A stretch of 64,000 nt of DNA from Steroidobacteraceae bacterium (GTDB taxonomy: Bacteria > Pseudomonadota > Gammaproteobacteria > Steroidobacterales > Steroidobacteraceae). Positions within the stretch are counted from its first letter, which is position 1; each line of letters opens with the position of its first letter. This document shows positions 12,538-39,096 of the stretch, in pieces. The notes beneath the pieces were generated by a model. That model did not search any database and was not told where the DNA came from. It worked only from the letters and a program-made list of their open reading frames with translations. The stretch lies in NCBI GenBank assembly GCA_027531255.1, contig JAPZRU010000027.1:1-64000 (forward strand). The letters are read 5' to 3'. The position numbers and the translations under genes are program-made.

Positions 12538-13827
<1,290 letters not shown>

Positions 13828-18184: not shown

Positions 18185-18215
18185 CGCGCGTCGCCGTGGC
18201 GCGGCACCGCTGAAA

Positions 18216-18244: not shown

Positions 18245-18302
18245 GCGCGACAGTCGGCGACGGGTCGACGGAGTTCATGTCGCATCTAGGGGTCGTTTCG
18301 CC

Positions 18303-22726: not shown

Positions 22727-22824
22727 CCCTATGCCGGAAGGACCGTGGACCCGATGATCAATGCCGAGTGCAGCGACGCGGCACGCTGGAGGCATCGCCC
22801 CGCCGCCCGCATCCCGCGCGCGAC

Positions 22825-23745
22825 ATGAGCACGCTGCCGGAAGCCGCGGCGGGCGAGCCTACGCCAGGGTCGATGCCCGCCATCTTCGCGCTCGTCCATC
22901 GCGCTCGGGTCGGCGTGATGGCGATTTTCGTCGTCGTTCTCGGTGGAGCGCTCGCCTTCGCGTTGACCTGGCCGAAGACCTACCGCGCCCAGGTCGTGAT
23001 GTCGATCGTGACGCCGGACAGCGGCGGGCTGGGCGGGCTGCTGGGCCAGTTCGGCGGGCTGGCCTCGCTGGCCGGGATTGGCGGGCTGTCGCTGGGCCGT
23101 TCGAACACGACCGAGCCGGTCGCCGTGCTGTCCTCGCGCGAGTTCGCCGCGCGGTTCATCCAGGAAAACGACCTGATGCCCGAACTGTTCCCCCGGAAAT
23201 GGGACGCCGAGGCGAAGCGGTGGAAGAGCGACGACCCGCGGAAGATCCCGACGATCGGCGACGGCGTGAAGAAGTTCACGGGGTCGGTCCGGCGCGTGAA
23301 CCTCGAGGAGGAGACCGGACTGGTGGTCCTGACGGTCGACTGGCGCGATCGCGAGAAGGCGGCGCGCTGGGCGAACTCGATGGTCGCGCGGGCGAACCGT
23401 GAGATGCGCGAGCGCGCCATCGCGGAAGCACAGAAGAGCATCGAGTACCTCAATGCGGAGGCCGCCAAGTCGGACGTGCAGCCGCTGCGCGACGCCATCT
23501 ACCGCGTGGTCGAGATACAGGTGAAGACCATCATGCTGGCGCGGGTGCGCGAGGACTACGCTTTCCGCGTGATTGATCCGGCGATGGTGCCCGATGCCAA
23601 CAAGCACTACTGGCCGCGCGGGTCGATCGTGATGGGCGTCGCGCTGCTGGTGGCGTCCCTGCTGGCTACTCTCTGGGTCTGCGGCACGTATCTCCTGGAT
23701 CGGGTGCGGCAGGGCTATCGGGATTCGGTCGGTCTGCGCAGATGA
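22825..23745 (+). CDS. Wzz/chain-length determinant family protein without kinase domain
   Basis: 306 residues with transmembrane segments at about 29-48 and 268-292 flanking a periplasmic region, the Wzz/PCP layout. Between them are a glycine/leucine-rich stretch (about 66-91) and a helical part. The protein ends soon after the second helix, so no cytoplasmic BY-kinase is fused. Wzz proteins control polymer length with Wzy. The ATG at 22825 starts just before the first helix. The next gene starts with an ATGA overlap. Confidence 0.85.
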   Translation: MSTLPEAAAGEPTPGSMPAIFALVHRARVGVMAIFVVVLGGALAFALTWPKTYRAQVVMSIVTPDSGGLGGLLGQFGGLASLAGIGGLSLGRSNTTEPVAVLSSREFAARFIQENDLMPELFPRKWDAEAKRWKSDDPRKIPTIGDGVKKFTGSVRRVNLEEETGLVVLTVDWRDREKAARWANSMVARANREMRERAIAEAQKSIEYLNAEAAKSDVQPLRDAIYRVVEIQVKTIMLARVREDYAFRVIDPAMVPDANKHYWPRGSIVMGVALLVASLLATLWVCGTYLLDRVRQGYRDSVGLRR

Positions 23746-25070
23746 ACGCGGCGCCCGAGGCGGGTCGCGGCCGCAGCGACGCGCTCGCGGTGCTCGTCGC
23801 GCAGGTCGGGATGCTGGCGGCCAGCCTGGCAGTGCAGGCGCTGCTTGCCTGGAAGCTGCTGCCGGCGGGGCGGGGCGAATACGCCGTGCTCGCCGCGGTC
23901 GGCACGTTGCTTCCCACGCTGTGCGCGATCGGTCTCGATCGCGCGATCCAGTACCAGTTGATGTCGGGCAAGATCCCGCTTTCCGTCGCGCTCGGGTCGC
24001 TCGGCCTGCTCGTGCCGGTCGCCGCCGGCGGTGCAATCGTGCTGCTGGTTGCGGCGGGTGCCGCGGGAGTGCCCACCACGCCGCCCGACGACGCCGGCTG
24101 GTGGCTCACGGCCGTGCTGCTGATCGTCGGCAGCCTCGCGCACACGGTGGCCCTGCGCCTGCACATCGCCGTGCGCGCGTACCGCCGGTATCTGTACGCC
24201 AACCTGCTGCAGTCGCTGGTCAGCGTGGGTGCGTTGCTGCTGGTCTTGGCGGCGTTCGACGGTGGCTTCGTGCTTGCGGCTCTGGCGCTCGCGCTGAGCT
24301 ACCTGTGCGCGGCGGCGCTCTCCGTCCGCTGGCTGGTCGGGGACGCCGGCGGGTCGTATGGCCTACTGGCGCCGGAGCGCCGCCGCGAGGCGTTCGGTTT
24401 CGGCGTGCGCTTCTATCCCACGCTCGTCGGGCACGCGGTGGACTTCAACGCCGGAACGCTGGTCCTCGCCGCCATGGCGACCTCCTCGGAGGTGGGCATC
24501 TACGCCGCGCTGTCGGCGCTGATGCTCAAGTTCCTGATCGTGGCGCAGGCGCTGCAGGAGGCACTCCTGCCGCGTGTGGCTGCGGACTCCATCGGCATCC
24601 CCGCGATAGTCGCGCAGATGGCACGGCTCGCGGTCGTCGCGACGTTCGTGGCGGTCGCCGTGTTCCTCGCAGCGGGCGAATGGATCGTCGCGCTCCTCCT
24701 GTCGCCGGCGTTCGTCGCAGGCGTTTCGGTGGCGTGGTGGCTCGCGCCGGGCATCGTCGCGCACGCCGCGTCGACGGTGCTTATGCCGCACTTCGAAGGC
24801 AGGGGAATGCCGGGCGTGGTATCGCTCGCCACCTGGGTCGGCCTCGTCGTCAACGTCGCGAGCCTGCTGGTGCTGTACCCGCGGATGGGTGTCGCGGGCG
24901 CGGGCCTCGCGATGACGATCGGCCTGTTTGTGCGCCTGCTGATCCTGCTGTTCAGGTTCCGCAACTCCTCCGGTACCTCGTTCTGCGAGGTCCTCGTGCC
25001 GCGCCGCGGCGACGCGGTGCTCGCGTGGACGGCCGTGCAGTCGTTGCTGCGGAAGGCGCGAACCGCATGA
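23742..25070 (+). CDS. Oligosaccharide flippase, Wzx/MATE-like family
   Basis: 442 residues, almost entirely hydrophobic with 12 or so predicted transmembrane segments and no catalytic motif, as in Wzx/polysaccharide transporter (MOP superfamily) proteins. It begins with a polar MNAAPEAGRGRSD and ends with a basic tail. It would flip undecaprenyl-linked repeat units to the periplasm. It is placed between wzz and the first amidotransferase and starts by overlapping the wzz stop as ATGA. Confidence 0.86.
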   Translation: MNAAPEAGRGRSDALAVLVAQVGMLAASLAVQALLAWKLLPAGRGEYAVLAAVGTLLPTLCAIGLDRAIQYQLMSGKIPLSVALGSLGLLVPVAAGGAIVLLVAAGAAGVPTTPPDDAGWWLTAVLLIVGSLAHTVALRLHIAVRAYRRYLYANLLQSLVSVGALLLVLAAFDGGFVLAALALALSYLCAAALSVRWLVGDAGGSYGLLAPERRREAFGFGVRFYPTLVGHAVDFNAGTLVLAAMATSSEVGIYAALSALMLKFLIVAQALQEALLPRVAADSIGIPAIVAQMARLAVVATFVAVAVFLAAGEWIVALLLSPAFVAGVSVAWWLAPGIVAHAASTVLMPHFEGRGMPGVVSLATWVGLVVNVASLLVLYPRMGVAGAGLAMTIGLFVRLLILLFRFRNSSGTSFCEVLVPRRGDAVLAWTAVQSLLRKARTA

Positions 25071-25102
25071 CGTCGCGGCACGCGCCCGTGGAGCGCCCCT
25101 AG

Positions 25103-26998
25103 ATGTGCGGCCTTGCCGGTCTGCTGACTGGCGCCGCCGCGGCCGGGCGCGCCGGCGAACTGCCGCGCATCGCGGTGGCGATGGGCCTCGCGCTCCGCCA
25201 CCGCGGTCCCGATGCCGGCAACGAGTGGCACGTCGCCGACGAGCCGGTCGCGCTCGCGCACCGGCGGCTGTCGATCCTCGACCTCTCTCCCGCCGGTGCG
25301 CAGCCGATGGTCTCGCATTGCGGGCGCTACGTGCTCGCCTACAACGGCGAGATCTTCAACTTCAAAGACGTTCGCGCGGCAGTGGAGGGGGCTCGCGGCC
25401 CGGTGCCGTGGCGCGGCCACTCGGACACCGAGATCCTGCTCGAGGCGATCGCAACCTTGGGACTCGAGCGGGCGGTGACTCTCTGCAACGGGATGTTCGC
25501 GCTCGCCGTCTGGGACCGCCGCGAACGAGTGCTGTCGCTGGCACGCGATCGTCTCGGAAAGAAGCCTTTGTACTACGGGCTGCTCGGCGGGGACTTCGTG
25601 TTCGGGTCGGAAGTCGTGGCACTGCGCGCGCATCCGGGCTGGCGCTTCGAGCCGGACCGCACGGCCCTGGCGTCCTACCTGCGCATGGGATACGTGCCGG
25701 AGCCGCTGACCGGTTTCGCAGGGCTGCGGAAGCTCGCATCGGGTTCGATTCTCGTGCTGCGTCCCGCGGACGTTGCGGCGGGGCGAATTCCGTCGCCGTG
25801 TCCGTTCTGGCGTGCGGACGAACTCGTGTCCGAACGGGAACCGTCTGATCCGGGCCGCCTCGAGGCCGTGATTGCCGGCGCGGTGGCGGACCGGCTCGTC
25901 GCCGACGTCCCGGTCGGGGCGTTCCTGTCCGGAGGCGTGGACTCGACGATCGTCACGGCGCTGATGAAGCGGCTCACCGGCTCCGTACGGACGTTCACGA
26001 TCGGCTTTGACGACAGCCCGACGAGCGAGTCCCGTCACGCCGCCGCGGTCGCACGGCACCTCGGCACGGATCACGAGGAACTACTGCTGACACCCGAGCA
26101 GGCGGCGGACCTCGTGCCCCGCGTGGCTGCCGCATACGATGAGCCGTTCGCCGACTCGTCGTCGATCCCGACCTGGCTCGTCTCGGGGCTTGCCGCCCGT
26201 CACGTCAAGGTCGTCCTCGCGGGCGACGGAGCGGACGAGATGTTCGGCGGTTACACGCGCTACGCTGCGAACGCCCGACTCTGGAACTGGCGCTCGCGGA
26301 TCCCGGCAGCGCTCCGCGCCGCAGCAGGAGCAGTGGCCGCGGGTGCGCTGGCGACGCCGGCCGCTGGCCGCTACGCGAGCGTCGCCGCGGCGCTGGTCGC
26401 CCCGGATGCCCGGGAGTTCTACCGCCGTCGCACGTCCTTCTTCCTCGATCCCGCTCGGTTGCTGCCCGGGGTCGTCGAACCCGTGGCGGCGCGACTCGTC
26501 AGCGCGGCGTCGCCGGCGGCGATCGAGCGGCAGATGATGTACCTGGACGTGCTCACGTACCTGCCGGACGACATCCTTGCCAAGGTGGATCGCGCCAGCA
26601 TGGCGCACGGCCTGGAAGTGCGCTCGCCGTTCCTGGACGACCGCGTCGTCGAATTCGCGTGGGGGCTGCCGGACGCCGCGGTCACCGGTGCGGCCGGCGG
26701 CAAGCGACTGCTGAAGGACCTGCTGTACCGGCTCGTGCCGCGCGAACTCGTCGACCGGCCGAAGACGGGCTTCGGCTTCCCGATCGAGCACTGGCTCCGC
26801 GGGCGCATGCGGCCGTGGGCGGAGGACACCCTGTTCGGTACGGCGGCGCTCGATGCGGCGGGCTGCGACCGCGCCGCCGTGCGGTCGGTCTGGGCGGGAC
26901 TGTTGGCCGGCAGGATGCGGCTAGCGGGTGGCGTCTGGAACCTGCTGATGCTCGCCGCGTGGCTGCAGCGGAACGCGGAGGTGCCCCGTGGCGACTGA
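25103..26998 (+). CDS. Asparagine synthase-like glutamine amidotransferase, copy 1
   Basis: 631 residues. The N-terminal class II glutaminase domain starts MCGLAGLL, with the nucleophile Cys2, then RHRGPDAG and YNGEIFNF. The synthetase domain has the ATP-binding FLSGGVDSTIV, AGDGADEMFGGYTRY and LAKVDRASMAHGLEVRSPFL. Such AsnB-like proteins in polysaccharide loci, for example WbpS of P. aeruginosa O6, amidate uronic acids rather than make free asparagine. It is the first of three such genes in this locus. The start is ATG 25103, with a 32-bp gap after the flippase. Confidence 0.88.
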   Translation: MCGLAGLLTGAAAAGRAGELPRIAVAMGLALRHRGPDAGNEWHVADEPVALAHRRLSILDLSPAGAQPMVSHCGRYVLAYNGEIFNFKDVRAAVEGARGPVPWRGHSDTEILLEAIATLGLERAVTLCNGMFALAVWDRRERVLSLARDRLGKKPLYYGLLGGDFVFGSEVVALRAHPGWRFEPDRTALASYLRMGYVPEPLTGFAGLRKLASGSILVLRPADVAAGRIPSPCPFWRADELVSEREPSDPGRLEAVIAGAVADRLVADVPVGAFLSGGVDSTIVTALMKRLTGSVRTFTIGFDDSPTSESRHAAAVARHLGTDHEELLLTPEQAADLVPRVAAAYDEPFADSSSIPTWLVSGLAARHVKVVLAGDGADEMFGGYTRYAANARLWNWRSRIPAALRAAAGAVAAGALATPAAGRYASVAAALVAPDAREFYRRRTSFFLDPARLLPGVVEPVAARLVSAASPAAIERQMMYLDVLTYLPDDILAKVDRASMAHGLEVRSPFLDDRVVEFAWGLPDAAVTGAAGGKRLLKDLLYRLVPRELVDRPKTGFGFPIEHWLRGRMRPWAEDTLFGTAALDAAGCDRAAVRSVWAGLLAGRMRLAGGVWNLLMLAAWLQRNAEVPRGD

Positions 26999-28232
26999 GG
27001 CGCCCGGGACCAGTGACGCCGCGGCGGGCGGCGCCGAGCGCGCGGTTCGCGTCGCCACGCGGATCGTGTTCCTGCTGTTCGCCGGCAGCATCGCCGCGGA
27101 GTACTCGCTCGTTCTGCCGGGGCTGGGGTCCATCACGCGCATCCTCGGTGCGCTCCTGTTGATGCTGGTTGCGGTCGACGTGCTGGGAGGACGGACGCTG
27201 CGACGCCCGCACGTGGCGTTCGCGCTGCTCACCGCGTTCGTGGCGTGGTCGCTTGCCTCGCTGGTCTGGAGCGCCGAGCCCGCGCAGACGCTCGGTCGGG
27301 CGACGACCTATGCGCAATTGCTCGTGATGAGTTGGATCGTCTGGGAGTACGTCCGGACGGAACGGGACTTCGCGCTGGTCCTGCAGTTGTTCGTGCTCGG
27401 TGCACTGTTCGTCGCCGCCGTCACGATCCGCGAGTTCAACCTGATCAATCTCGCGGGACTCGTGATCACGGACCTGCGCGTCTCGGCGTTCGGCGCGAAC
27501 CCGAACGAACTCGGCCTGACGATGGCGATCGCCGTCCCGGTCTCGCTGTACCTGGTCCGGCAGGAGCCGCGCGGGCTCGCGCTGCTGATCAATGGCACCT
27601 ATCTCGTGGTGGGGCCGGTCGCCGTGATCCTGACGGCGTCGCGCAGCGCCGCCGTCGCGCTCGGCATCGCGTTCCTCGCGATGCTCGTGATGCTGCGGGA
27701 CGCGCGCGCGGGCACGAAGGTCCTCGTCGGCACCAGCCTCGGGGCCGTCGGAGCGATCGGCCTGTCGCTGATCCCGGCATACACCTGGGAGCGCATCGCG
27801 TCGATCGGCGCGAAGCTGCAGCGGATGGACTTCAACAATCGCGCGGCGAACTGGCGCGCCGGACTGGAGGCGTTCGCCGAGCAGCCGTTCCTCGGCGTCG
27901 GCGCCGGCGCGTTCCAGGGCGCGTCCTCGCACCTGATCATGGTGCCGCGGAGTTCGCACAGCACGTGGCTGGGCGTGCTCGTGGAGACCGGACTGGTCGG
28001 CGCCGTCCTGTGGTTCGGCGCGATCGCGATGGCGCTGCTGGGTCTACGGCACGTCACGCCGTCCGTGCGGCGACTCCTGCTGGCAATGATCGTGCCGATG
28101 ATGGTCGGCATGCTCGTCACGGGCTGGGACCACCGGAAGGTGCCGTGGTTCGTGTTCACGCTGGCGCTCGTCGCCGCGGAACTCGCGCGGCGCGCGGGGG
28201 CGCGCGCGGCTCGTGGGGTCCGCGAACCGTGA
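26988..28232 (+). CDS. O-antigen ligase/polymerase (Wzy-like) membrane protein
   Basis: 414 residues, about 11 transmembrane segments and a periplasmic loop with FLGVGAGAFQGASSHLIM and RSSHSTWLGVLVETGLVG, the Wzy_C-type pattern of O-antigen polymerases and ligases. The likely role is polymerisation of lipid-linked repeat units in the periplasm. The GTG start at 26988 overlaps the amidotransferase by 11 bp and the stop overlaps the next GTG (GTGA). Whether it polymerises or ligates cannot be decided from sequence. Confidence 0.83.
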   Translation: MATEAPGTSDAAAGGAERAVRVATRIVFLLFAGSIAAEYSLVLPGLGSITRILGALLLMLVAVDVLGGRTLRRPHVAFALLTAFVAWSLASLVWSAEPAQTLGRATTYAQLLVMSWIVWEYVRTERDFALVLQLFVLGALFVAAVTIREFNLINLAGLVITDLRVSAFGANPNELGLTMAIAVPVSLYLVRQEPRGLALLINGTYLVVGPVAVILTASRSAAVALGIAFLAMLVMLRDARAGTKVLVGTSLGAVGAIGLSLIPAYTWERIASIGAKLQRMDFNNRAANWRAGLEAFAEQPFLGVGAGAFQGASSHLIMVPRSSHSTWLGVLVETGLVGAVLWFGAIAMALLGLRHVTPSVRRLLLAMIVPMMVGMLVTGWDHRKVPWFVFTLALVAAELARRAGARAARGVREP

Positions 28233-29359
28233 GCGTGCTCCTGGTGATCGATCACTTCGGCTCCGGTGGCGCGCAACGCCAGCTCGTCGCGCTCGCTGTC
28301 GGGCTCGCCAAGCGCGGCCATCACGTCGAGTGCATTTCGTACCACGCGGGCTACGACTTCTTCCGGCCCGCACTGGCGGCCGCCGGCGTGGCCGTCCACG
28401 TCGTGCCGAAGCGCGGACGCCTGGGCGCGAACGTCGTCGCGGCGATTCGCCGCAGGCTGGTCGCCGGGCGGTTCCGGGCGATCGTCGCGTTCATGGAGAC
28501 GCCCAGCGTCTACGCCGAGCTTGCCTCCGCGGGATTGCCGGTGCGCGTGATCGTCTCCGAGCGGGTGGACCCGCTGGGCGCGACGTATACGCCAATGCTG
28601 CGAGCGCGCGCGCTGCTGCACCGCAGAGCGGATGCCGTGGTGGCGAATTCCGCGACGTCCCGCGACATCTGGACGGAGCTGTTCCCCGGTCTGGCGTCGC
28701 GCTTCTGCGTGATCAGGAACGGCGTCGACCTCGCGCACTTCGCTCCCGCGCCGGCGCCGTCGAGCGACTCGCCGCTGCGACTCGTGGCCGTCGGGACCGT
28801 GGTCGAGCGCAAGAACGCGCACGGACTCGCCGAGGCGCTGGCTGTGCTGCGTGCGCGCGGGCTTCCGCTGCCGGTCGTGACGTGGGTGGGCAAGACCGAG
28901 CCGGGCCAGGCCACGGCTGCGTATCGCGCACGACTGGATCGGCAGCTGGCAGAGGACGGCCTGGAGCAGCACTGGGTCTGGGCGGGTGAACAGCGCGACG
29001 TACGTCCGTACATCGAGGCCGCGCACGCGCTCATCCATCCCTCGTTCCGCGAGGGCCTGTCGAACGCGGTCTGCGAGGCGTTTGCCTGCGCCCGGCCGGC
29101 CATCGCGGCGGCCGTGGGCGACACCACGTGGATGCTCGGTGGCGAGCGCCGCGGCACGGGCTTCGACCCTCTCGACGTGCCTTCGATCGCCGATGCGCTG
29201 CAGCGGTTCGCGGCGCTCGGTCCGGACGAGCGCCGCGCCCGCGGCGCGGCGGCACGCGCGTTCGCCGAGAAGGAACTGGGCTTCGAGCGTTTCGTCGAGC
29301 GCTTCGAGGCGCTGCTGGTCGGTTGCGCTACTCCGCGGCCGGCGCAGGAGGCGGGTTGA
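28229..29359 (+). CDS. Glycosyltransferase family 4 protein, copy 1
   Basis: 376 residues with two Rossmann-like halves. The N terminus has LLVIDHFGSGGAQRQLVALA, typical of GT4 retaining transferases, and the C half has VGTVVERKNAHGLAEAL and HPSFREGLSNAVCEAFACARP, the E-x7-E motif region. It should add a sugar from a nucleotide donor to the lipid-linked repeat unit. GTG at 28229 overlaps the Wzy stop. It is followed by the second amidotransferase at a TGATG junction. Confidence 0.9.
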   Translation: MSVLLVIDHFGSGGAQRQLVALAVGLAKRGHHVECISYHAGYDFFRPALAAAGVAVHVVPKRGRLGANVVAAIRRRLVAGRFRAIVAFMETPSVYAELASAGLPVRVIVSERVDPLGATYTPMLRARALLHRRADAVVANSATSRDIWTELFPGLASRFCVIRNGVDLAHFAPAPAPSSDSPLRLVAVGTVVERKNAHGLAEALAVLRARGLPLPVVTWVGKTEPGQATAAYRARLDRQLAEDGLEQHWVWAGEQRDVRPYIEAAHALIHPSFREGLSNAVCEAFACARPAIAAAVGDTTWMLGGERRGTGFDPLDVPSIADALQRFAALGPDERRARGAAARAFAEKELGFERFVERFEALLVGCATPRPAQEAG

Positions 29360-31227
29360 TGTGTGGCTTCTGCGGGGTCCTCGGTACCGGCCCCGATGAC
29401 GCGCGCGGCGAGACGGTGGCGCGCATGACGGCGACGCTCGTGCACCGGGGTCCCGACGCCGGCGCGACCTTCGTCGGTCCCGGCATTGCGCTCGGCCATC
29501 GCCGTCTCAGCATCCTGGATCTCTCGCCGGCGGGCGCCCAGCCGATGCGTCTCGCGTCCGGCGTGACGATCGCCTACAACGGCGAGGTCTACAACTTCCT
29601 CGATCTGCGCCGCGAGCTCGAGATGGCGGGCCGTGTCTTTCGCGGCCACTCCGACACGGAAGTGATCCTCAACGCGTACGACGAGTGGGGGCTCGACGGG
29701 CTGCGGCGGCTCGAGGGCATATTCGCGTTCGGGCTCTGGGATCCGCGGCACGAACGCCTCGTCCTGATGCGCGATCGGCTGGGCGTGAAGCCGCTGTTCC
29801 ACGCACGGTCCACGCACGGCCTCGCGTTCGGCTCGGAGATCAAGGCGGTGCTCGCCGCCGGCGGCGTGGACCGTGCGATCGACCGGCAGTCGTTCCACGA
29901 GTACCTGTGGTTCGGGAATGCCTTCGAGGACCGCACGATGTACTCGGCGGTCCGTGCAGTTCCGCCGGGGCACTGGCTGATCGCGGAGCGAGGCGCGGTT
30001 CGCGTCGAGGCCTGGTGGCGGATCGAGGATTGGCTGGGCCCGCCGGCAGTCGCGACGTACGACGAGGGCGTGCACGCCGTCCGCGCGGCGGTCGACGCGG
30101 CCGTGACGCGGCAGCTGGTCGCGGACGTGCCCGTCGGCATCTTCCTCAGCGGCGGAGTGGACTCGTCGGCGATCGCCGCGACGGCCGCCCGCCACGCGTC
30201 GACGCGGCTGTCGAGTTACTCCGTCGGCTTCGATTTCGACCGCGGCGTGAACGAGCTGCCGACCGCGAGGGGACTCGCCGAGTCGCTCGGCTTCGATCAC
30301 CACGAACTCCACGTCGGCGGCGCGGACCTCCCGGACGTCATTGTTGCGCTCGTACGCGCGCACGACGAGCCGTTCGCCGACGCGGCCAACCTGCCCCTGT
30401 TCCTGCTCGCGCGCGGCCTCGAGCGTGCGGTGAAGGTCGTGCTGCAGGGCGACGGAGGCGACGAGATGTTCGCGGGCTACCGCCGTTACGCGGTGCTGCG
30501 GCATGCGCGCGCGTGGTCCGCGTGGCCCGCCGCCGCGACCGCGCTGCTGCGCCGGGCCGGCCGCCGCGGCGAGCGCATCGCGCGGATGGCCGCGGCGGTG
30601 GGCTCGCGCGAGGCCGCGCAACGCATGGCGCTGCTGCTCACGGTCGAGACGACTTGGGATCCACCGTCCGCGCTGCTGTCCCCGGAAGTTCGCGCCGGTC
30701 TGGAGGGGGAGACGGATCCTTTCCTGGCCTATCGCGCGTGTGCCCGGCGCTTCGCCGCCCACGAGCCGGTGCAGCAGATGCTGTTGACCGACATCCATCT
30801 GCAGCTGCCGTCGCAGTTCCTCGCCAAGGTGGATCGCGCGACGATGGCGCAGGGACTCGAAGCACGGGTGCCGCTGCTCGACGAGCGCGTCGCGCAGCTG
30901 GCCGTCGGGCTGCCTTCCGCGTGGAAGGTGAGCGGCACGGAGAAGAAGCGGGTGCTTCGGGACGCGATGCGCGACAGGGTGCCGGCCCGGATCCTCGATG
31001 GGCCCAAGACGGGGTTCGGCGTGCCCTACGAGCACTGGCTGCGAACCTCGCTCCACGGCTTCGCCCGCGACGCGATACTGTCGCCGGCCTTCCTGCAGCG
31101 TTTCGGTTTCGACGCTGCGCGCGTCGCCGCCGCGCTCGACGACCACCGCTCGGGGCGCCGGGAACGCGGCTTCATGCTCTGGAAGCTCCTGCAGCTCGCC
31201 CTGTGGGCGCGTGAGTGCGCACGGTGA
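29359..31227 (+). CDS. Asparagine synthase-like glutamine amidotransferase, copy 2
   Basis: 622 residues. Begins MCGFCGVLG, giving Cys2, followed by VHRGPDAG, YNGEVYNF, FLSGGVDSSAIAA, QGDGGDEMFAGYRRY and AKVDRATMAQGLEARVPLL, so both the glutaminase and the adenylating domains look intact. An AGGAGG ribosome-binding site lies 7 bp ahead of the ATG at 29359, which overlaps the GT stop. It differs widely from copies 1 and 3 outside the motifs, so it is not a recent tandem duplicate. Expected role: ATP-dependent amidation of a carboxylate in the polysaccharide or its precursor. Confidence 0.88.
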   Translation: MCGFCGVLGTGPDDARGETVARMTATLVHRGPDAGATFVGPGIALGHRRLSILDLSPAGAQPMRLASGVTIAYNGEVYNFLDLRRELEMAGRVFRGHSDTEVILNAYDEWGLDGLRRLEGIFAFGLWDPRHERLVLMRDRLGVKPLFHARSTHGLAFGSEIKAVLAAGGVDRAIDRQSFHEYLWFGNAFEDRTMYSAVRAVPPGHWLIAERGAVRVEAWWRIEDWLGPPAVATYDEGVHAVRAAVDAAVTRQLVADVPVGIFLSGGVDSSAIAATAARHASTRLSSYSVGFDFDRGVNELPTARGLAESLGFDHHELHVGGADLPDVIVALVRAHDEPFADAANLPLFLLARGLERAVKVVLQGDGGDEMFAGYRRYAVLRHARAWSAWPAAATALLRRAGRRGERIARMAAAVGSREAAQRMALLLTVETTWDPPSALLSPEVRAGLEGETDPFLAYRACARRFAAHEPVQQMLLTDIHLQLPSQFLAKVDRATMAQGLEARVPLLDERVAQLAVGLPSAWKVSGTEKKRVLRDAMRDRVPARILDGPKTGFGVPYEHWLRTSLHGFARDAILSPAFLQRFGFDAARVAAALDDHRSGRRERGFMLWKLLQLALWARECAR

Positions 31228-32357
31228 ACGACCGGATTCCGGTGATCTTCGTCGGTGCGTTCCGCGACGCTACCGGCGACGGCGGGTTCGGCGGCCAGAT
31301 GTATGCGTGCCGCAGCCTGGTCGACAGCGGTATCGGTGCATACGTCCGCTGGCTGCCGATCGACTCGACGATGGTGTCGGTTCCGCCGCCGTCGCTGGCC
31401 GTCCGCGGGCTCGCGGCCGCGCGCCGGGTGTGGTCGCTGCTCGGCGCGATGCTCCGCGAGCCGCGAGCGCGGGTGCTCGTGTTCGCCGGCGACGGGCCGA
31501 GCTTCGTGGAGAAGGGAACGATGATCCTGCTCGCCCGGTGCTTCGGGCGACACGCCGTTCTGTGTCCGCGCTCCGGTATCCTGCTCGACGACCTGCGCCG
31601 GTCGGCGTTCTTCCGCCGATTCGTGCCGACGGTGCTGCGCGCGGCCTCCGGCGTGCTGTGCCAGAGCAGTCAGTGGGCGGCGACCTTTCGGGACGTGGCA
31701 GCGCTGGATCCCTCGCGCCTGCACGTCGTGCCCAACTGGCTGCGCTGCGACGACTACGCCGCCCTCGCCGCGACGCGAACCCGTGTCCGGTCCGCGCGTA
31801 CGTTCCTCTACCTCGGCTGGATCGAGGACTTCAAGGGCATCTTCGACCTGATCGACGCCGTAGACGCTCGTCGCGATGCCCTCGCCGAGGCCCGCTTTCT
31901 CGTATGCGGCTCCGGTTCCAGGCTCAGCGAGGCCCTGCAGCGCATCCAGCGGCTGGGGCTCGAGTCTCGCTTCGAGTTCCGCGGGTGGGTGGGCGGCGAA
32001 GCGAAGCGTGCAGCGTTGACCGAAGCGGACATGCTGGTGCTACCGTCGCGTCGCGAGGGGATGCCGAACGCGGTGCTCGAAGCGATGGCCAGCGGCATGC
32101 CGGTGATCGCCACCGCGGTGGGAGGAGTGCCCGACGTCGTGCGCGACGGCGTGAACGGCCTGGTAGTGCCGCCTGCGGACCCGCCTGCGCTCGGTCGAGC
32201 GCTGGTGCGGTGCTTGTCGCCCGACGCGGACGTTGCGAGCTGGGGCCTTGAAGCACTTCGGACGGTCCGGAATAATCACGATGTGGATGCAGCGTGGCCC
32301 CGGGTGCTGCGCGCATTGGACATCGAGGCGACCGACCCGCGTGCCTCGGCGAACTGA
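31224..32357 (+). CDS. Glycosyltransferase family 4 protein, copy 2
   Basis: 377 residues. The N terminus PVIFVGAFRDATGDGGFGG and the C-half motifs FLYLGWIEDFKGIFDLID and LPSRREGMPNAVLEAMASGM mark a GT4 retaining glycosyltransferase, with the catalytic Glu pair in REGMPNAVLEAM. Start GTG 31224 was preferred because it overlaps the amidotransferase stop (GTGA), as at most junctions here; another GTG lies at 31215. The following methyltransferase begins 34 bp later. Confidence 0.89.
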   Translation: MNDRIPVIFVGAFRDATGDGGFGGQMYACRSLVDSGIGAYVRWLPIDSTMVSVPPPSLAVRGLAAARRVWSLLGAMLREPRARVLVFAGDGPSFVEKGTMILLARCFGRHAVLCPRSGILLDDLRRSAFFRRFVPTVLRAASGVLCQSSQWAATFRDVAALDPSRLHVVPNWLRCDDYAALAATRTRVRSARTFLYLGWIEDFKGIFDLIDAVDARRDALAEARFLVCGSGSRLSEALQRIQRLGLESRFEFRGWVGGEAKRAALTEADMLVLPSRREGMPNAVLEAMASGMPVIATAVGGVPDVVRDGVNGLVVPPADPPALGRALVRCLSPDADVASWGLEALRTVRNNHDVDAAWPRVLRALDIEATDPRASAN

Positions 32358-32391
32358 AGGCCGACCGTCCGCAGGACGCCCCGAGGACCCC

Positions 32392-33357
32392 TTGCACACT
32401 TCTTCGCTTCCCGCCCTGTGCTGTCCGCAGCACGGCCAGCCGCTCGTCGCACGCGGCGCGGAGCTCGAGTGCCCCTCCGGTTGCCGTCATGCGATCCGGG
32501 ACGGCATTCCGCGATTCGTCGCCAACGACGCTTACGCGTCCGCGTTCGGGTTGCAGTGGCTCCGCTACCAGAAGACCCAGCTCGACTCCTATTCCCGCGT
32601 GCCCGTTTCGGCCCGCCGCCTCGAGCGCTGCTTCGGCCCAGCGGCGTGGTCGGCGCTGCGTGGCGCCCGCGTGCTCGAGGCGGGTTGTGGCGCCGGCCGG
32701 TTCACCGAGGTGCTGCTCGGGCAGGGCGCGGCGGTCGCGTCGATCGACCTCAGCGAGGCGGTCGTGGCCAACGCGCGCAACTTCCCCGTGGGCGAGCGCC
32801 ACGTGATCGCGCAGGCTGACATCTTCGCGCTGCCGTTCGCGCCCGGGCAGTTCGATGCCGTGATGTGCATCGGCGTGCTCCAGCACACGCCCTCGCCCGA
32901 GCAGGCGATCGCCGCACTGGCCCGCCAGGTCAGGCCGGGCGGCTGGCTCGTGATCGACCACTATGCGTATACGCTGTCCTGGTACACGAAGACGGCGCCG
33001 CTGTTCCGCGCGTTCCTGCGGCGCATGAGCCCCGAACGCGGGCTGCGAGCGACGGAGGCGATCGTGGAGGCGTTCCTGCCGATGCACCGCGCCGTGCGGA
33101 GTTCGCGCGTCGGCCAGGCGCTCGTGAGTCGCGTCTCGCCGGTCATCTGCTTCTACCAGGCGCTGCCGGAACTGGACGACCGGCTGCAGGAGGAGTGGGC
33201 CTTCCTCGACACGCACGACTCTCTGACCGACTGGTACAAGCACTTCCGTACTGCCGGCCAGCTCCGGCGCTGCCTCGTCGAGCTCGGTCTCGACGATATC
33301 TGGGCCGAGGACCGCGGCTCGAACGTCGAGGCGCGCGGCCGCCGCCCGTCCAACTGA
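32392..33357 (+). CDS. Class I SAM-dependent methyltransferase with N-terminal Cys-rich segment
   Basis: 321 residues. The SAM loop is VLEAGCGAGRFTEVLLGQGA, followed by SIDLSEAVV and FDAVMCIGVLQHTPSPEQA, a Methyltransf_11 pattern. The first 30 residues contain CCPQHG and CPSGC, a Trm112-like zinc-ribbon spacing. The TTG at 32392 has GAGGA just upstream; no ATG is available near. Between GT4-2 and amidotransferase 3, it likely methylates a sugar of the repeat unit, but the acceptor is not evident. Confidence 0.84.
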   Translation: MHTSSLPALCCPQHGQPLVARGAELECPSGCRHAIRDGIPRFVANDAYASAFGLQWLRYQKTQLDSYSRVPVSARRLERCFGPAAWSALRGARVLEAGCGAGRFTEVLLGQGAAVASIDLSEAVVANARNFPVGERHVIAQADIFALPFAPGQFDAVMCIGVLQHTPSPEQAIAALARQVRPGGWLVIDHYAYTLSWYTKTAPLFRAFLRRMSPERGLRATEAIVEAFLPMHRAVRSSRVGQALVSRVSPVICFYQALPELDDRLQEEWAFLDTHDSLTDWYKHFRTAGQLRRCLVELGLDDIWAEDRGSNVEARGRRPSN

Positions 33358-33370
33358 CGCGCGGCTGCCC

Positions 33371-35296
33371 GTGTGCGGCATCGCTGGATTCGCGGGGACG
33401 GGGGACGGCGCGCTGCTGGAGCGCATGGCCGCGTCCCTCGGCCATCGCGGCCCGGACGACACGGGCACGTGGCTCTCGCCCGACCGCCGGGTCGGCTTCG
33501 CGCATCGCCGTCTGTCCATCCTCGATCTGTCGCCGCGTGGCCACCAGCCGATGTGGGACGCGGGCGGCCGCGCGGTCGTGTGCTACAACGGCGAGATCTA
33601 TAACTTCGCCGAGCTGCGCGACGAGCTCGAGGCGCGTAACTGGTCCTTCGACAGCACCTCGGATACGGAGGTGCTGCTGAAGGGCTACCTCGAGTACGGC
33701 CCCGGGTTCGTCGAACGCCTGAACGGCATCTTCGCCTTCGCGATCTTCGATCTGCAGCGGCGCGAGCTGTTCCTGGCGCGCGACCATCTGGGGGTCAAGC
33801 CGCTGTATCTCGCGGAAGTGCCCGGTGCGGTGCTGTTCGCGAGCGAACTGAAGGCGCTGCTGCTGGATCCGCGCGTGCCTCGCGACCTCGCTCCGACGGC
33901 GCTGCTCCGCTACCTCACGTTCCTGTGGTCGCCGGGGACCGCCACGCCGTTGCGCGCGGTGCGACGCGTCGAGCCGGGAACCGCGCTCGTGGTGACCGAC
34001 GGGCGCATCGCGCGCGAGTGGACGTACTACCGTCCGCGCTTCGGCGGCGTCGCCCCGAGTACGCTCGAGGAATGCGTCGCCGGCGTGGCGGACCGGCTCC
34101 GCACCGCCGTGCATCGGCAGATGGTGTCGGACGTGCCGGTCGGCGCGTTCCTGTCGGGCGGACTGGACTCCAGCGCCGTGGTCGCGTTCGCGCGCGAGCG
34201 CGCCGGCGAGCGCGGCCTCGACTGCTTCACCATCGCGCCGGACGGGGCTGCGATGACCTCCGACGGGATGGCTGAGGACCTGCCGTACGCGAAGCGCGTC
34301 GCGCAGCACCTGGGCGTGCGGCTCCACTCCATTCCCGTGCGCGCCGACGTCGTGCGTCACCTCGGGCGCGTCGTCTATCACCTGGACGAGCCGCAAGCGG
34401 ATCCCGCCGCGATCAACGTCATGCTGATCGCCGGCCTCGCACGGGAGCACGGCATCAAGGTGCTGCTCTCCGGAGGGGGCGGGGACGACCTGTTCACCGG
34501 GTACCGACGCCACTTGGCGTTCGAGGCGGAGAAGTACTGGTCCTGGCTGCCGTCCCCCGTTCGACGCGCTGCCGCTGCGCTGACCGGCGGGTTGCCGGTG
34601 TCGGTGCCGCTGCTGCGGCGGATCCGCAAGTCGATGCAATACGCCGGGGCCGCGCCGGACGCGCGCCTCTGCGGCTATTTCCACTGGGCCGCGCCGAGCG
34701 TGGCGGCGAGCCTGCTGGTGGCGGCTCCGGATCCGACGCGCGCCGACGAGCCGCTGCTCGCGGCGCTCGCCGCCGCGGATCCCGCAGCTCGCGGCCTCGA
34801 CCGCATGCTGCTGCTGGAGCAGCGGTTCTTCCTGTCGGATCACAATCTCCTCTACACCGACAAGCTCTCGATGGCGCATGGCGTGGAAGCGCGGGTGCCG
34901 TTCCTCGATCTGGACCTGGTGGCCTACGCGAACTCGCTGCCGCCCGCCGTGAAGCAGCGCCACGGGGTCGGCAAGTGGGTTCTGAAGCGCGCGATGGAAC
35001 CGTACCTTCCGCGCGACGTCATCTATCGGCCGAAGACGGGCTTCGGCGCGCCGCTGCGCCAGTGGGTCCGACGCGATCTCGTGACCACGATCGACGAAGT
35101 GCTGTCGCCTGCGGCGCTCGCGCGTCGCGGCGTGTTCGAGCCGCGGAACGCCCGTGCCCTGATCGAGGCCGATCGCGCCGGTGCGATCGACGCCTCGTAC
35201 ACCGTATTCGCCATGCTCGGGATCGAGCTGTGGGCGAGGACCTTCCTCGATCCACCTCAGCCGACGATGCTCGAGGAACTGCCGGGGTTCTCATGA
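33371..35296 (+). CDS. Asparagine synthase-like glutamine amidotransferase, copy 3
   Basis: 641 residues from GTG 33371. MCGIAGFAG supplies Cys2; then GHRGPDDTG, YNGEIYNF, AFLSGGLDSSAVV, LSGGGGDDLFTGYRRH and YTDKLSMAHGVEARVPFLD. The ATP loop has Leu in SGGLDS instead of the SGGVDS of the other two, and the DGADE-type motif is GGGGDD, so this copy is the most diverged. It still looks like a full-length amidotransferase. The stop overlaps the bi-domain oxidoreductase ATG (ATGA). Confidence 0.87.
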   Translation: MCGIAGFAGTGDGALLERMAASLGHRGPDDTGTWLSPDRRVGFAHRRLSILDLSPRGHQPMWDAGGRAVVCYNGEIYNFAELRDELEARNWSFDSTSDTEVLLKGYLEYGPGFVERLNGIFAFAIFDLQRRELFLARDHLGVKPLYLAEVPGAVLFASELKALLLDPRVPRDLAPTALLRYLTFLWSPGTATPLRAVRRVEPGTALVVTDGRIAREWTYYRPRFGGVAPSTLEECVAGVADRLRTAVHRQMVSDVPVGAFLSGGLDSSAVVAFARERAGERGLDCFTIAPDGAAMTSDGMAEDLPYAKRVAQHLGVRLHSIPVRADVVRHLGRVVYHLDEPQADPAAINVMLIAGLAREHGIKVLLSGGGGDDLFTGYRRHLAFEAEKYWSWLPSPVRRAAAALTGGLPVSVPLLRRIRKSMQYAGAAPDARLCGYFHWAAPSVAASLLVAAPDPTRADEPLLAALAAADPAARGLDRMLLLEQRFFLSDHNLLYTDKLSMAHGVEARVPFLDLDLVAYANSLPPAVKQRHGVGKWVLKRAMEPYLPRDVIYRPKTGFGAPLRQWVRRDLVTTIDEVLSPAALARRGVFEPRNARALIEADRAGAIDASYTVFAMLGIELWARTFLDPPQPTMLEELPGFS

Positions 35297-37422
35297 AGCA
35301 GGTGCTCCAGGATCTCAAGACGGGCGCGACGCTGGTCGTGGACGCGCCCGCGCCCGTGCCGGGGCCGAACGAGGTGCTGATCGCGACGCGCGCGAGCCTG
35401 CTGTCGGCCGGGACCGAGCGGATGCTGCTGGAGTTCGGCCGCTCGGGGCTGATCGACAAGGCGCGCCAGCAGCCCGACAAGGTCCGCCAGGTGCTCGACA
35501 AGATCCGCACCGACGGACTGTTCGAGACGCTCGGCGCGGTGCGCGCGAAGCTGGATCAGCCGCTGCCGATGGGCTACTGCAACGCCGGCGTGGTCGTCGC
35601 GCGCGGTACGGCCGTCACCGAGTTCGAGGTCGGACAGCGCGTCGTCTCCAACGGCCCGCACGCCGAGCTGGTGCGCGTGTCCCGCAACCTCTGCGCGCGC
35701 ATCCCGGACGGCGTACCCGACGACGAGGCCTCGTTCACGGTGCTCGGGGCCATCGCGCTGCAGGGCCTGCGGCTCGCGGCGCCGACGCTCGGCGAGACCT
35801 TCGTCGTCTCCGGCCTGGGGCTGATCGGCCTGACGGCCGTCCAGCTGCTGCGCGCCAACGGGTGCCGGGTGGTCGGCCTGGATTTCGATCCCGCGCGGCT
35901 CGAACTCGCGCGCCGCTTCGGCGCACGCACCGTCGCGCTCGGCGACGGCGTCGATCCCGTGCAGGAAGTGCTGCGCGCCACCGACGGGCGCGGCGCCGAC
36001 GGCGTGCTGGTCGCGGCATCGACCGCCAGCAGCGACCCGGTGCGCCAGGCGGCGCAGATGTCGCGCAAGCGCGGGCGCATCGTGCTGCTCGGCGTCACCG
36101 GGCTCGAACTCTCGCGAGCAGATTTCTACGAGAAGGAACTCACGTTCCAAGTGTCCTGTTCGTACGGGCCGGGTCGCTACGATCCCGCGTACGAGGAGCG
36201 CGGGCAGGATTACCCGCTCGGATTCGTGCGGTGGACCCAGCAGCGGAATTTCGCCGCCGTGCTCGACGCCATCGCGGAGCGGCGGCTGGACGTCCGGCCG
36301 ATGCTGACGCACCGCTTCCCGATCGCCGACGCCGGTGCCGCGTACGATGCGCTGGCGTCCGACCGCAACGCACTGGGGATCGTGCTGGAGTACCCGGCAT
36401 CCGGGCCCGCGCCACAGGAGCGCAGCGTCGCCGTCGCGTCGCGCCCGATCGACCCCGCGCAGCCGGTGCTCGCGGCGATCGGCGGCGGCAACTACGCCTC
36501 CCGGGTGCTGCTGCCGGCGTTCCAGGCGGCGGGCTTCGACCTGCACACGCTGGTCACGACCGGATCCGCCCAGACGGTCCCGACCGCCGGCAAGCTCGGA
36601 TTCCGGCGCGCCGCGACGGACGTGGCCGAGGCGCTCGGCGAGTCGGCCGTGTCGCTGATCGCGATCGCGACTCGGCACGACACGCACGCGGACCTCGCGA
36701 TCGCCGCGCTGCGCAGCGGCAAGCACGTGTTCGTCGAGAAGCCGCTCGTCACGACGCGCGAGCAGCTGGCCGCGCTCGAGCGAACGCTGGCGGAACTCGG
36801 CCCCGCGGCGCCGTCGCTGACGGTCGGGTTCAACCGCCGCTTCGCGCCGCACGTCCAGCGCGCGCGGACGCTGCTCGCTCGGCGCTCGGGGCCGCGCGCG
36901 TTCGTATACACCGTCAACGCCGGCGCGATTCCCGCCGAGCACTGGACGCAGGACCCGCGCAAGGGCGGGGGGAGGCTGGTCGGCGAGGGCTGCCACTTCA
37001 TCGATCTGCTGCGTTTCCTGGCGGACGCGCCGATCGCGCGCGCCCAGGCGCTCGCGCTCGAGGAGCCTGCGCGCCGCGGGGTGCCGCCCGACACCTTCGG
37101 CATCCAGCTCGCGTTCGCCGACGGCTCGCTCGGTACGATCCAGTACTTCGCGAACGGGGCGCGCTCCTTCCCGAAGGAGCGTCTCGAGATCTTCGCGGGC
37201 GGCGGCGTGCTCAGGATCGACAACTTCCGCCGCTTCGAGGCGTTCGCCTGGCCGGGTGCGTCGAACGACCGGCTCTGGAGCCAGGACAAGGGCCAGTCGC
37301 AGATGGCCGCCGCGCTTCGCGACGCGATCGTCGCGGGCGGCGCGCCGCCGATCCCGCTCGACCAGATCCTGGAAGTGGCGCGCGTGACTCTCGACTGCGC
37401 GGAGCAGGTCGGCACGGCATGA
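35293..37422 (+). CDS. Bi-domain oxidoreductase: zinc-type alcohol dehydrogenase fused to Gfo/Idh/MocA
   Basis: 709 residues. The first about 370 residues are a medium-chain dehydrogenase with NAD loop VSGLGLIGLTAVQLLRANGC and an ASTASSDPVRQA segment. From about 400 the second half has AAIGGGNYASRVLLPAFQAA, HVFVEKPLVTT and a substrate region GAIPAEHWTQDPRKGGGR, typical of Gfo/Idh/MocA sugar oxidoreductases. Such fusions occur in polysaccharide loci, usually beside a heparinase-like gene as here, but the reaction is not established to my knowledge; modification of a uronic or keto sugar is possible. ATG 35293 overlaps the upstream stop. Confidence 0.87.
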   Translation: MKQVLQDLKTGATLVVDAPAPVPGPNEVLIATRASLLSAGTERMLLEFGRSGLIDKARQQPDKVRQVLDKIRTDGLFETLGAVRAKLDQPLPMGYCNAGVVVARGTAVTEFEVGQRVVSNGPHAELVRVSRNLCARIPDGVPDDEASFTVLGAIALQGLRLAAPTLGETFVVSGLGLIGLTAVQLLRANGCRVVGLDFDPARLELARRFGARTVALGDGVDPVQEVLRATDGRGADGVLVAASTASSDPVRQAAQMSRKRGRIVLLGVTGLELSRADFYEKELTFQVSCSYGPGRYDPAYEERGQDYPLGFVRWTQQRNFAAVLDAIAERRLDVRPMLTHRFPIADAGAAYDALASDRNALGIVLEYPASGPAPQERSVAVASRPIDPAQPVLAAIGGGNYASRVLLPAFQAAGFDLHTLVTTGSAQTVPTAGKLGFRRAATDVAEALGESAVSLIAIATRHDTHADLAIAALRSGKHVFVEKPLVTTREQLAALERTLAELGPAAPSLTVGFNRRFAPHVQRARTLLARRSGPRAFVYTVNAGAIPAEHWTQDPRKGGGRLVGEGCHFIDLLRFLADAPIARAQALALEEPARRGVPPDTFGIQLAFADGSLGTIQYFANGARSFPKERLEIFAGGGVLRIDNFRRFEAFAWPGASNDRLWSQDKGQSQMAAALRDAIVAGGAPPIPLDQILEVARVTLDCAEQVGTA

Positions 37423-39089
37423 AGGCCGCGGTTCCCGTGGAGGCGCCGCTGTTCGAACGCGCGGCGCGATTGTGGCGTACGGCCTGCCACCTTCGCCCGG
37501 TCCAGGTGTGGAACCGGGTATCCCGCCGGCTGGTGCATGGCGTGCGTTCCGACGTGTCCGCGGTCGTGCTGGAGCTGCCGCGCGGCCCGTGGGCGACGCC
37601 CGTGGCCGCGCCGTCCGTGCTGGTGGCGCCCGGCCGGGTCCGCATCCACGAGGTCGAGCGCGACATCGCCGGCGCCGACGACTGGCTCGCTCCGGACATG
37701 GCGGCGCTGTGGCGTTATCACCTGCACTATTTCGACGAGCTCGGCGCACCTGCGGACGCGCGTCGCGTCGAGTGGCAGTCCGCGCTAATGGAGCGCTGGA
37801 TTCGCGAGAATCCTCCGGGCCGCGCACCCGCATGGGACCCGTACCCTGTTTCGCTGCGCACGGTGAACTGGCTGAAGTGGGCGTTGGCGGGCCACCGGCT
37901 GAGTCCGGCGGCGGTGGCGAGCCTCGCGTTGCAGGCGGGCTGGCTCGAGCGGCGGCTGGAGTTTCACCTGCTCGCGAACCACCTGTTCGAGAACGCCAAG
38001 GCACTGTGGTTCGCGGGCGCGTGCATGCGCGGCGATGCGGCATCGCGCTGGCTGCGACGCGGGCGCGCGCTCGCGCTCGACGAGTTGCGGGAGCAGGTGC
38101 TCGCGGACGGCGGGCACTTCGAGCGCAGCCCCATGTACCACGCCCGGATGCTGGAGAACGTGCTCGACCTGGCGAACGTGGAGCGCGCGTGCGGGCGGGA
38201 GCCGCCGGTCGAGCTGCGCGACGCGGCCGCGCGCATGCTGGCCTGGCTGGAGACGATGTCGCATCCGGACGGCGGATTCGCGCTGCTGAACGACGCGGCG
38301 GCGGAGCAGGCGCCCGCACTCGCGGAACTGCGCGACTATGCGCGTGCCCTCGGCGTGGCGCTGCCGCCGGTCCCGGGGAGCCGCTGGCTCGCGGACAGCG
38401 GCTACGTGCGCCTCGAGGGCGGCCCGTGGGTCGCGATCGCGGACCTCGCTCCGGTCGGTCCCGACTACCAGCCGGGGCACGCGCACGCCGACACGCTGAC
38501 CTTCGAGGCGTCGCTGCGCGGGCGCCGCCTGGTCGTGGACACCGGCACGTCCACCTACGAGCCGGGCGCCCGGCGCAGCCACGAGCGCAGCACTGCCGCG
38601 CACAACGTGCTCGCGGTCCAGGGCGTGAACTCGTCCGAGGTCTGGGCTGGCTTCCGCGTGGGGCGCCGCGCCCGGGTCGTGGAGGCCGAGACGCGACTCG
38701 ACGGGCCGTCGCCGTGGGCCGCAGGCGCGCACGACGGCTATCTGCAGCAGCGCGTCGCGGGCCTGTGCCGTCGTCGCTGGCAGATCGATTCGGACGTGCT
38801 GCGCGTCGAGGATCGGCTCGACGGCGTCGGCGAGGGCAGCGTCGAGTGGCTGCTGCACCTGCACCCCTCGGTGCAGGTGCAGCCCGCCGGACCCGCGCGG
38901 TTCCGGCTCGAACGCGACGGTCGCGCGGTGGCCATGTTCACCGGAGACCCGGCGCTATGCTGGTTCGCGCAAGCCTCGACGTATCATCCGCGCTTCGGCG
39001 TGTCGGAGCCGAACTGGCGGATCCGGGGCGAGGGGCGGGTCGCGCTGCCGGCCCGTTTCCGCTGCGAGCTCTCCGCAACGAACGATTGA
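37419..39089 (+). CDS. Heparinase II/III-like protein without signal peptide
   Basis: 556 residues. An N-terminal alpha/alpha-barrel-like part (WLKWALAG, HLLANHLFENAKALWFAG, FERSPMYHARMLENVLDL) is followed by a beta-sandwich with QPGHAHADTLTFEASLRGR and VDTGTSTYEPG, the heparinase II/III signature. Known members are uronate lyases that are usually exported, but the N terminus here (MKAAVPVEAPLFERAARLW) has no signal peptide, so an intracellular role is suggested. It always sits next to the bi-domain oxidoreductase in loci I remember. ATG 37419 overlaps the upstream stop (ATGA). Confidence 0.83.
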   Translation: MKAAVPVEAPLFERAARLWRTACHLRPVQVWNRVSRRLVHGVRSDVSAVVLELPRGPWATPVAAPSVLVAPGRVRIHEVERDIAGADDWLAPDMAALWRYHLHYFDELGAPADARRVEWQSALMERWIRENPPGRAPAWDPYPVSLRTVNWLKWALAGHRLSPAAVASLALQAGWLERRLEFHLLANHLFENAKALWFAGACMRGDAASRWLRRGRALALDELREQVLADGGHFERSPMYHARMLENVLDLANVERACGREPPVELRDAAARMLAWLETMSHPDGGFALLNDAAAEQAPALAELRDYARALGVALPPVPGSRWLADSGYVRLEGGPWVAIADLAPVGPDYQPGHAHADTLTFEASLRGRRLVVDTGTSTYEPGARRSHERSTAAHNVLAVQGVNSSEVWAGFRVGRRARVVEAETRLDGPSPWAAGAHDGYLQQRVAGLCRRRWQIDSDVLRVEDRLDGVGEGSVEWLLHLHPSVQVQPAGPARFRLERDGRAVAMFTGDPALCWFAQASTYHPRFGVSEPNWRIRGEGRVALPARFRCELSATND

Positions 39090-39096
39090 GGCCGGC

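Follow-up and report, generated by a model that had tools for sequence, protein, structure and literature searches.

Genes of the amidotransferase block

In the genome of a Steroidobacteraceae bacterium (assembly GCA_027531255.1), three genes for AsnB-type glutamine amidotransferases, here named AsnB1, AsnB2 and AsnB3, are interleaved with glycosyltransferase genes in a tightly packed polysaccharide gene block. The block covers positions 25103-35296 of a stretch of 64,000 nucleotides from contig JAPZRU010000027.1, which in its full length is called the window, and all genes given below with coordinates between 12457 and 47786 are located on the plus strand. The order is AsnB1 (25103-26998), a wzy-like gene for a putative O-antigen-ligase/polymerase-like membrane protein (26988-28232), the GT4 glycosyltransferase gene gtA (28229-29359; start uncertain), AsnB2 (29359-31227; ATG start, with TTG at 29356 as possible alternative), the GT4 glycosyltransferase gene gtB (31215-32357; start possibly at 31224), the S-adenosylmethionine methyltransferase-like gene mt1 (32341-33357; start uncertain, methyltransferase matches below cut-off), and AsnB3 (33371-35296; GTG start). 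The original prediction had given this order, and it was borne out, with the name wzy following from position and a weak profile match (TIGR03097, 50 bits vs. a cut-off of 188). Its claim of three AsnB-like genes interleaved with glycosyltransferases in one operon was confirmed by the open reading frame check of the window, in which AsnB1-3 are full-length, and by domains and tight spacing.

AsnB3 is followed by biox (35293-37422), whose domain matches indicate a bi-domain oxidoreductase of a zinc dehydrogenase and a Gfo/Idh/MocA part, by hep (37419-39089) for a heparinase II/III-like protein (domain match, homologue alignment and structure model), and by the GT4 glycosyltransferase gene gtC (39097-40335; profile match). 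Then come genes for an NAD-dependent epimerase/reductase (40332-41267; profile matches) and for an initiating polyprenyl-phosphate sugar-1-phosphate transferase (PF00953; 41264-42283; profile match). From 23742 to 42283, neighboring genes overlap or are separated by gaps of at most about 35 bases, and therefore these genes likely form one operon. Further downstream, a second methyltransferase gene is listed before a WecB-type UDP-GlcNAc 2-epimerase gene (43118-44209; TIGR00236, 283 vs. a cut-off of 210), followed by a gene for a nucleotide-sugar dehydratase (44271-46379; PF02719), whose assignment to the PglF/WbpM type is our reading.

With regard to a Wzx/Wzy-dependent locus, profile searches detected Wzi/Wza export genes as well as the PF00953 initiating transferase. 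The export genes are found at 16676-25070, with two Wzi-like genes (PF14052 twice), a Wza-like exporter (SLBB/Poly_export), and putative wzz and wzx genes named by position and hydrophobicity only. For the wzx candidate no match was obtained in NCBIfam or Pfam profile searches, and for the wzz candidate none in Pfam. The two Wzi-like genes stand in tandem (16676-18184 and 18216-19778).

Family, lineages and residues of AsnB1-3

Each of the three proteins contains Pfam GATase_6/7 and Asn_synthase domains scoring far over the cut-offs, and each passes the broad asparagine synthase model TIGR01536 (423, 441 and 443 for AsnB1, AsnB2 and AsnB3 vs. 267). In an alignment to E. coli AsnB, the N-terminal Cys (Cys2) and the glutaminase residues Arg, Asn, Glu and Asp, which we take to be those that matter in AsnB-type enzymes, are kept in all three, as are the SGGxDS/T loop and the synthetase lysine (human Lys466, presumably E. 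coli Lys449). Thus the original prediction was right that Cys2 and the ATP-loop residues are kept although the proteins are diverged (pairwise identity 37-39%). Lys-466 is described as conserved and essential in AS-B (PMC6748925).

None of the narrower models was passed. The highest-scoring NCBIfam model for each protein was the XrtA/PEP-CTERM amidotransferase TIGR03108, yet with 456.1, 471.0 and 452.2 all three stayed far under its cut-off of 816.9, so that none was assigned to the exosortase type, with which the original prediction had suggested a comparison. Also the asparagine synthetase B model NF006949 (233.8, 280.1 and 301.7 vs. 499), the N-acetylglutaminylglutamine amidotransferase model TIGR03104 (320.8, 397.1 and 371.4 vs. 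570.1), and the lasso-peptide cyclase model NF033535 (138.1, 213.6 and 230.2 vs. 525) were rejected.

For phylogenetic analysis, a 65-row IQ-TREE tree was built from a selection of PF00733 matches from relatives (8 loci and 20 fetched regions), with clade supports given as pairs such as 100/99. Left out were duplicate sequences, those copies in L002-L004 that come from the window itself, a partial AsnB of L021 at 9881 and the matches of L006-L008 (L007 and L008 dropped by name, L006 yielding no open frame that showed the loop pattern). Five further AsnB3-type proteins from the same class were placed by BLAST search (43-51% identical) and added to the loop alignment, outside the tree. AsnB1 belongs to a 10-row clade (100/99) containing WbqG of E. 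coli O121, to which it is about 40% identical, and another AsnB-type protein of the same genome (L001, on contig C40). AsnB2 falls into a 14-row clade (100/100) from Pseudomonadota, Gemmatimonadota, Planctomycetota, Acidobacteriota and Saprospiraceae, and AsnB3 into a 5-row clade (100/99) from Pseudomonadota, Gemmatimonadota and Planctomycetota. The branch order between most clades of the tree is weakly supported. In an approximately unbiased (AU) test, a single clade of AsnB1-3 was rejected (p-AU 7.8e-8); together with the tree, this rules out a recent tandem duplication. The kinship with known sugar amidotransferases and exosortase-linked genes that the original prediction wanted compared was found in part, AsnB1 grouping with WbqG and with the AsnB gene near the genome's exosortase, and AsnB2 and AsnB3 standing outside the WbqG clade. 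Near Cys-containing AsnB-type proteins of relatives, we also observed proteins without the Cys-Gly start, which form a 7-row clade (100/100; L042, L043, L044, L045, L048, L049 and L050) and, judged by this motif, are probably glutaminase-dead members.

The acceptor-side loops differ by clade. At the position of Glu364 in human asparagine synthetase, set by alignment and PMC6748925, the acid is D in 10/10 rows of the WbqG clade, and the AsnB2 clade has the loop QGDGGDEM in 14/14 rows. In AsnB3-type proteins, the acid is replaced by A, G, M or T in all ten rows (five in the tree, five placed by search). The equivalents of Glu364/Asp367/Glu368 are D/D/E in AsnB1, D/D/E in AsnB2 and G/D/D in AsnB3; the acidic aspartate pocket of asparagine synthetases was hence not found as such, with AsnB1 and AsnB2 deviating only by a conservative Glu-to-Asp exchange.

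Strong PF00733 matches in the genome, which is 95.6% complete, number five: AsnB1-3 and two others, located on C40 and C29; beyond these, the best match has an E-value of 1.1e-11. The C40 gene and the genome's only exosortase match are about 9 kb apart, and this gene adjoins glycosyltransferase-like genes scoring under curated cut-offs. Near the C29 gene (L005), we found a tyrosine-kinase-like gene of the XrtA type (211 vs. a cut-off of 231), a GT4 gene, a nucleotide-sugar dehydrogenase gene and an XrtA chain-length gene over cut-off. All five strong AsnB-type genes thereby appear to be in polysaccharide loci. GatB is encoded in the genome (582 vs. 315), while for asparaginyl-tRNA synthetase (AsnRS) no match over cut-off was found in the 95.6%-complete genome (best match 91.5 vs. 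342.6), which makes tRNA-dependent formation of asparagine probable. Of 58 relatives, 20, some of them with incomplete genomes, gave no PF00733 match at E <= 1e-40. Because of GatB without AsnRS over cut-off, these relatives and the apparent polysaccharide context, a role of AsnB1-3 in asparagine synthesis is unlikely. That they are asparagine synthetases, or amidases of diaminopimelate in peptidoglycan, which happen to sit in the operon is in our view very improbable: TIGR01536 carries the name asparagine synthase and some AsnB proteins amidate diaminopimelate (PMC8554201; the 65-row tree held none of these), but the low NF006949 scores, the glycosyltransferase neighbors, the asparagine supply just described and the Glu364 equivalents D, D and G argue against it, human E364A and E364Q being inactive (PMC6748925).

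Neighborhood of AsnB2 and AsnB3 and sugar donor genes

The surroundings of AsnB2 and AsnB3 recur in other bacteria. Of 13 related loci, eight (L009, L011, L014, L016, L018, L019, L020 and L021) have a gtB-like GT4 gene directly 3' of AsnB2, and five (L012, L013, L015, L020 and L021; the L021 match is partial and at a contig end) have an AsnB3-type gene at most 4.4 kb downstream of AsnB2. After the AsnB3-type gene, biox follows within 0.9 kb in three of these five (L012, L013 and L020); the contig of L021 ends there, and at the AsnB2/AsnB3-type locus L015 no biox match was found. In Marinobacter sp. CHS3-4 (L009), AsnB2, gtB, biox, wecB and hep occur together. Among the matches listed, with up to three candidates scored per genome, none of 368 other genomes of the class had an AsnB2 match at E <= 1e-150, and no AsnB2 relative was found on plasmids at E <= 1e-100.

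Searching 369 genomes of the class with AsnB3 gave at least six matches at E <= 1e-140, the window's own included; here and in the biox search the same limit of three candidates per genome applied. Among the matches listed, biox is located within about 1.1 kb after the AsnB3-type gene in all five other genomes, which belong to five different families, and a hep-like match follows biox in four of them (L072, L073, L074 and L075), the contig of L068 ending before. Since biox was detected in at least 31 of the 369 genomes, the window's own included, the chance that five out of five AsnB3 genomes fall within the other 30 of 368 is 2.6e-6 under the assumption of independent genomes, which holds only partly. 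From the side of biox, the 1.5-kb flanks (some shorter) of 30 loci (L076-L105) contain a match best fitting AsnB3 in seven loci, window included, with two of these matches on the opposite side of biox (L100 and L102), and a hep-like match in 14. Thus, the biox-hep pair often occurs without AsnB3, and AsnB3-type genes are mostly found beside biox. Some of the class biox/hep loci also carry WecB.

The hep protein resembles heparinase III (E 1.3e-7). Its structure model is middling (predicted local distance difference test, pLDDT, 69; predicted template modeling score, pTM, 0.75; 162 of 556 residues under 50), and a search with this model returned heparinase III as best match, followed by alginate lyases and others, with human dermatan-sulfate epimerase 1 at rank 27. 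Asn187, Tyr240 and His354/His356 show no variation among five homologues and align with residues of heparinase III that are presumably catalytic. By eye, no signal peptide was seen; therefore a cytoplasmic role is possible, in which hep might act on a nucleotide- or lipid-linked sugar. The structure model of biox is poor (pLDDT 60, pTM 0.47).

Genes for uronic acid donors are present in the window, as claimed by the original prediction, but 10-18 kb outside the block. A TviB/WbpO-type UDP-GlcNAc 6-dehydrogenase (12457-13827; NF011729, 634 vs. 592) is the candidate for the donor of N-acetylhexosaminuronic acid (HexNAcA), and Ugd, a UDP-glucose 6-dehydrogenase (46452-47786; TIGR03026, 464 vs. 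190; TuaD model, 483 vs. 700), for that of glucuronic acid (GlcA). An NAD epimerase (13831-14841) resembles UDP-glucuronate 4-epimerase, a specificity that is our reading since no model was passed over cut-off. Thus UDP-GlcA and UDP-HexNAcA should be supplied by genes of the window, as should the UDP form of galacturonic acid (GalA) if the epimerase is read correctly. WecB and one Ugd follow the operon, the other donor genes being outside the block. The second Ugd gene (about 53370-54710; profile match) is near-identical to the first (403 of 446 aligned positions).

The protein encoded at 59035-59841 (minus strand) has, as judged by eye, a PEP-CTERM-like sorting tail at its end, and NCBIfam gave no hit for it at 1e-30. 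With this protein and a chain-length gene of the XrtA system (62168-63754, plus strand; TIGR03007, 456 vs. 279), a second, exosortase-type polysaccharide locus may start at the window's right end. At 49694-51577, a gene flanked by manC-like and phosphomannomutase-like genes encodes a large protein in which putative Ig domains (He_PIG) are repeated; a further He_PIG protein was found near the C29 AsnB gene (L063:2508-3425).

Proposed function and comparison with known systems

On balance, we lean towards the proposal that a surface-polysaccharide operon of the Wzx/Wzy type has its core in this block; its three amidotransferases would have been recruited from three old lineages and would most likely amidate uronic acids, each with its own acceptor preference. 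Glutamine would be hydrolyzed, the ammonia channeled to the second active site, and a carboxylate adenylated with ATP and converted to the amide. As substrates, uronic acid residues (HexNAcA, GlcA or GalA type) are most likely, either as nucleotide sugars or in lipid-linked form. AsnB1 would work like WbqG, and AsnB3 would most likely act on the sugar handled by the adjacent biox and hep. Family, context and the dispensability of an asparagine synthetase lend good support to an amidation of carboxyl groups in the course of glycan synthesis, and uronamide formation is its best reading; we infer the uronate as acceptor, the stage of action and the difference of the three acceptors. The latter is plausible from lineages, loop signatures and neighbors.

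Several points weigh against this proposal. AsnB2 and AsnB3 are outside the WbqG clade, and we know of no row in either of their clades with an experimentally tested function. The distant uronic donor genes may feed other polymers, the incompleteness of the genome leaves the absence of AsnRS uncertain, the sugar of the AsnB3 neighborhood could be a non-uronate, and the polymer itself is predicted from genes. In addition, the b-Cool locus of Bordetella lists one such gene and makes two amidated residues, so that three genes need not mean three acceptors and gene count gives no guide to the number of amidated residues (PMC12407052). Of the idea that each enzyme serves a different uronic acid, the part concerning lineages, acceptor-side signatures and the grouping of AsnB1 with WbqG stood, whereas an equation of gene and residue numbers is, in view of b-Cool, not supported; for a charge-neutral polymer we found no support either.

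The b-Cool product, with two amidated N-acetylgalactosaminuronic acid residues (GalNAcAN), also favors the alternative that all three enzymes make uronamides but overlap, or that only one or two act here, gene number reflecting gain in a polysaccharide hot spot. Published exopolysaccharide (EPS) regions with two (PMC9012009) or three (PMC3684757) AsnB-type genes point the same way; in the latter, two of the three wbpS-annotated genes of Rubrivivax psc1 were hit in a transposon screen and a phenotype is described for RGS1_10407 (PMC3684757). We nevertheless judge this account doubtful, since the loop signatures are clade-specific and conserved across phyla and the AsnB3 lineage is tied to biox. 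Less likely still is that one or more of the enzymes, most likely AsnB3, amidates a carboxyl group other than C6 of a uronic acid, such as that of an amino acid, of a lactyl/pyruvyl-type substituent or of an unusual acidic sugar made by biox and hep. AsnB3-type rows lack the Glu364-position acid found in AsnB1, AsnB2 and asparagine synthetases, and their lineage goes together with an oxidoreductase fusion whose product is unassigned; the heparinase/alginate-lyase fold in the AsnB3 module, however, points to uronate chemistry.

A bolder version, which we put forward tentatively, is that AsnB3 represents an undescribed class of sugar amidotransferases building, together with biox and hep, an amidated sugar new to surface polysaccharides, where hep might serve as C5 epimerase of a uronate linked to lipid, and that with AsnB1 and AsnB2 the polymer of the operon carries three chemically different sugar amides. 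Amidation of uronic acids removes negative charge and may govern acceptance of the sugar by the next glycosyltransferase, as the authors presumed from an H. pullorum wbpS mutant (PMC6025236). With three enzymes of different lineages, the operon offers a natural test bed for acceptor choice in a family that broad models call asparagine synthase. The recurring AsnB3-biox-heparinase module, predicting an unassigned sugar pathway in several bacterial families, is the lead most worth following. In the open-licence literature, neither the biox-hep module nor a three-lineage operon was found beyond multi-gene EPS regions, which is weak evidence of absence.

Among known systems, the E. coli O121 locus is alike in TviB, epimerase, wzx and wzy, and in an AsnB-type gene adjoining wzy and two GT4 genes; unlike the window, it has one amidotransferase instead of three, and no biox or heparinase-like gene among 23 features of the stretch examined. 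The P. aeruginosa O6 kit of WbpS, WbpO, WbpM and WbpL, which we take to include one amidotransferase, resembles the window in having a HexNAc dehydrogenase, a WbpM-type dehydratase, a PF00953 transferase and an AsnB-type enzyme among glycosyltransferases, a likeness of assumed gene content and not of compared sequences. A WbpO-WbpP-WbpS route has been described, and knockout of wbpS in H. pullorum shortened the glycan to a disaccharide, whose second sugar is named differently in results and discussion (PMC6025236). WbqG is reported as required for the E. coli O121 uronamide, and deletion of wbpS in P. gingivalis led to loss of the uronamide (PMC7468200, for WbqG citing King 2010).

In Bordetella, the nine-gene b-Cool locus shares UDP-GlcNAcA/GalNAcA genes, the asparagine-synthase gene BB0880 and five putative glycosyltransferases with the window; it differs by its single amidotransferase gene and an oligosaccharide product with two GalNAcAN, inferred from mass and nuclear magnetic resonance, next to one GalNAcA (PMC12407052). 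That such loci usually hold one amidotransferase gene, as the original prediction had it, is consistent with E. coli O121 and b-Cool and not with published EPS regions: there are two asparagine synthetase genes in clusters of Zoogloea and Aquincola (PMC9012009), and three genes annotated wbpS together with PEP-CTERM-associated genes are described for the Rubrivivax gelatinosus psc1 / Thauera MZ1T EPS region (PMC3684757). Disruption of RGS1_10407 in Rubrivivax altered colony morphology and aggregation; unlike here, the psc1 wbpS genes, likened by annotation, are scattered within a 75-kb region, between locus tags 10407 and 10435 (PMC3684757). In four of the 58 relatives (G014, G033, G035 and G039), three PF00733 matches at E <= 1e-40 lie within about 13 kb; because one of the three has no Cys-Gly start in each case, these sets are, judged by this motif, of another kind. 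The Planctomycetota locus L015 has three AsnB-type genes with Cys-Gly motif within 9.3 kb. The view that a cluster of three is itself exceptional is weakened, and for Zoogloea and Rubrivivax, polysaccharide regions with two or three AsnB genes have been described before. While amidation itself is already known, new here are the AsnB3-biox-hep module and the presence of three intact lineages within a single 10-kb block.

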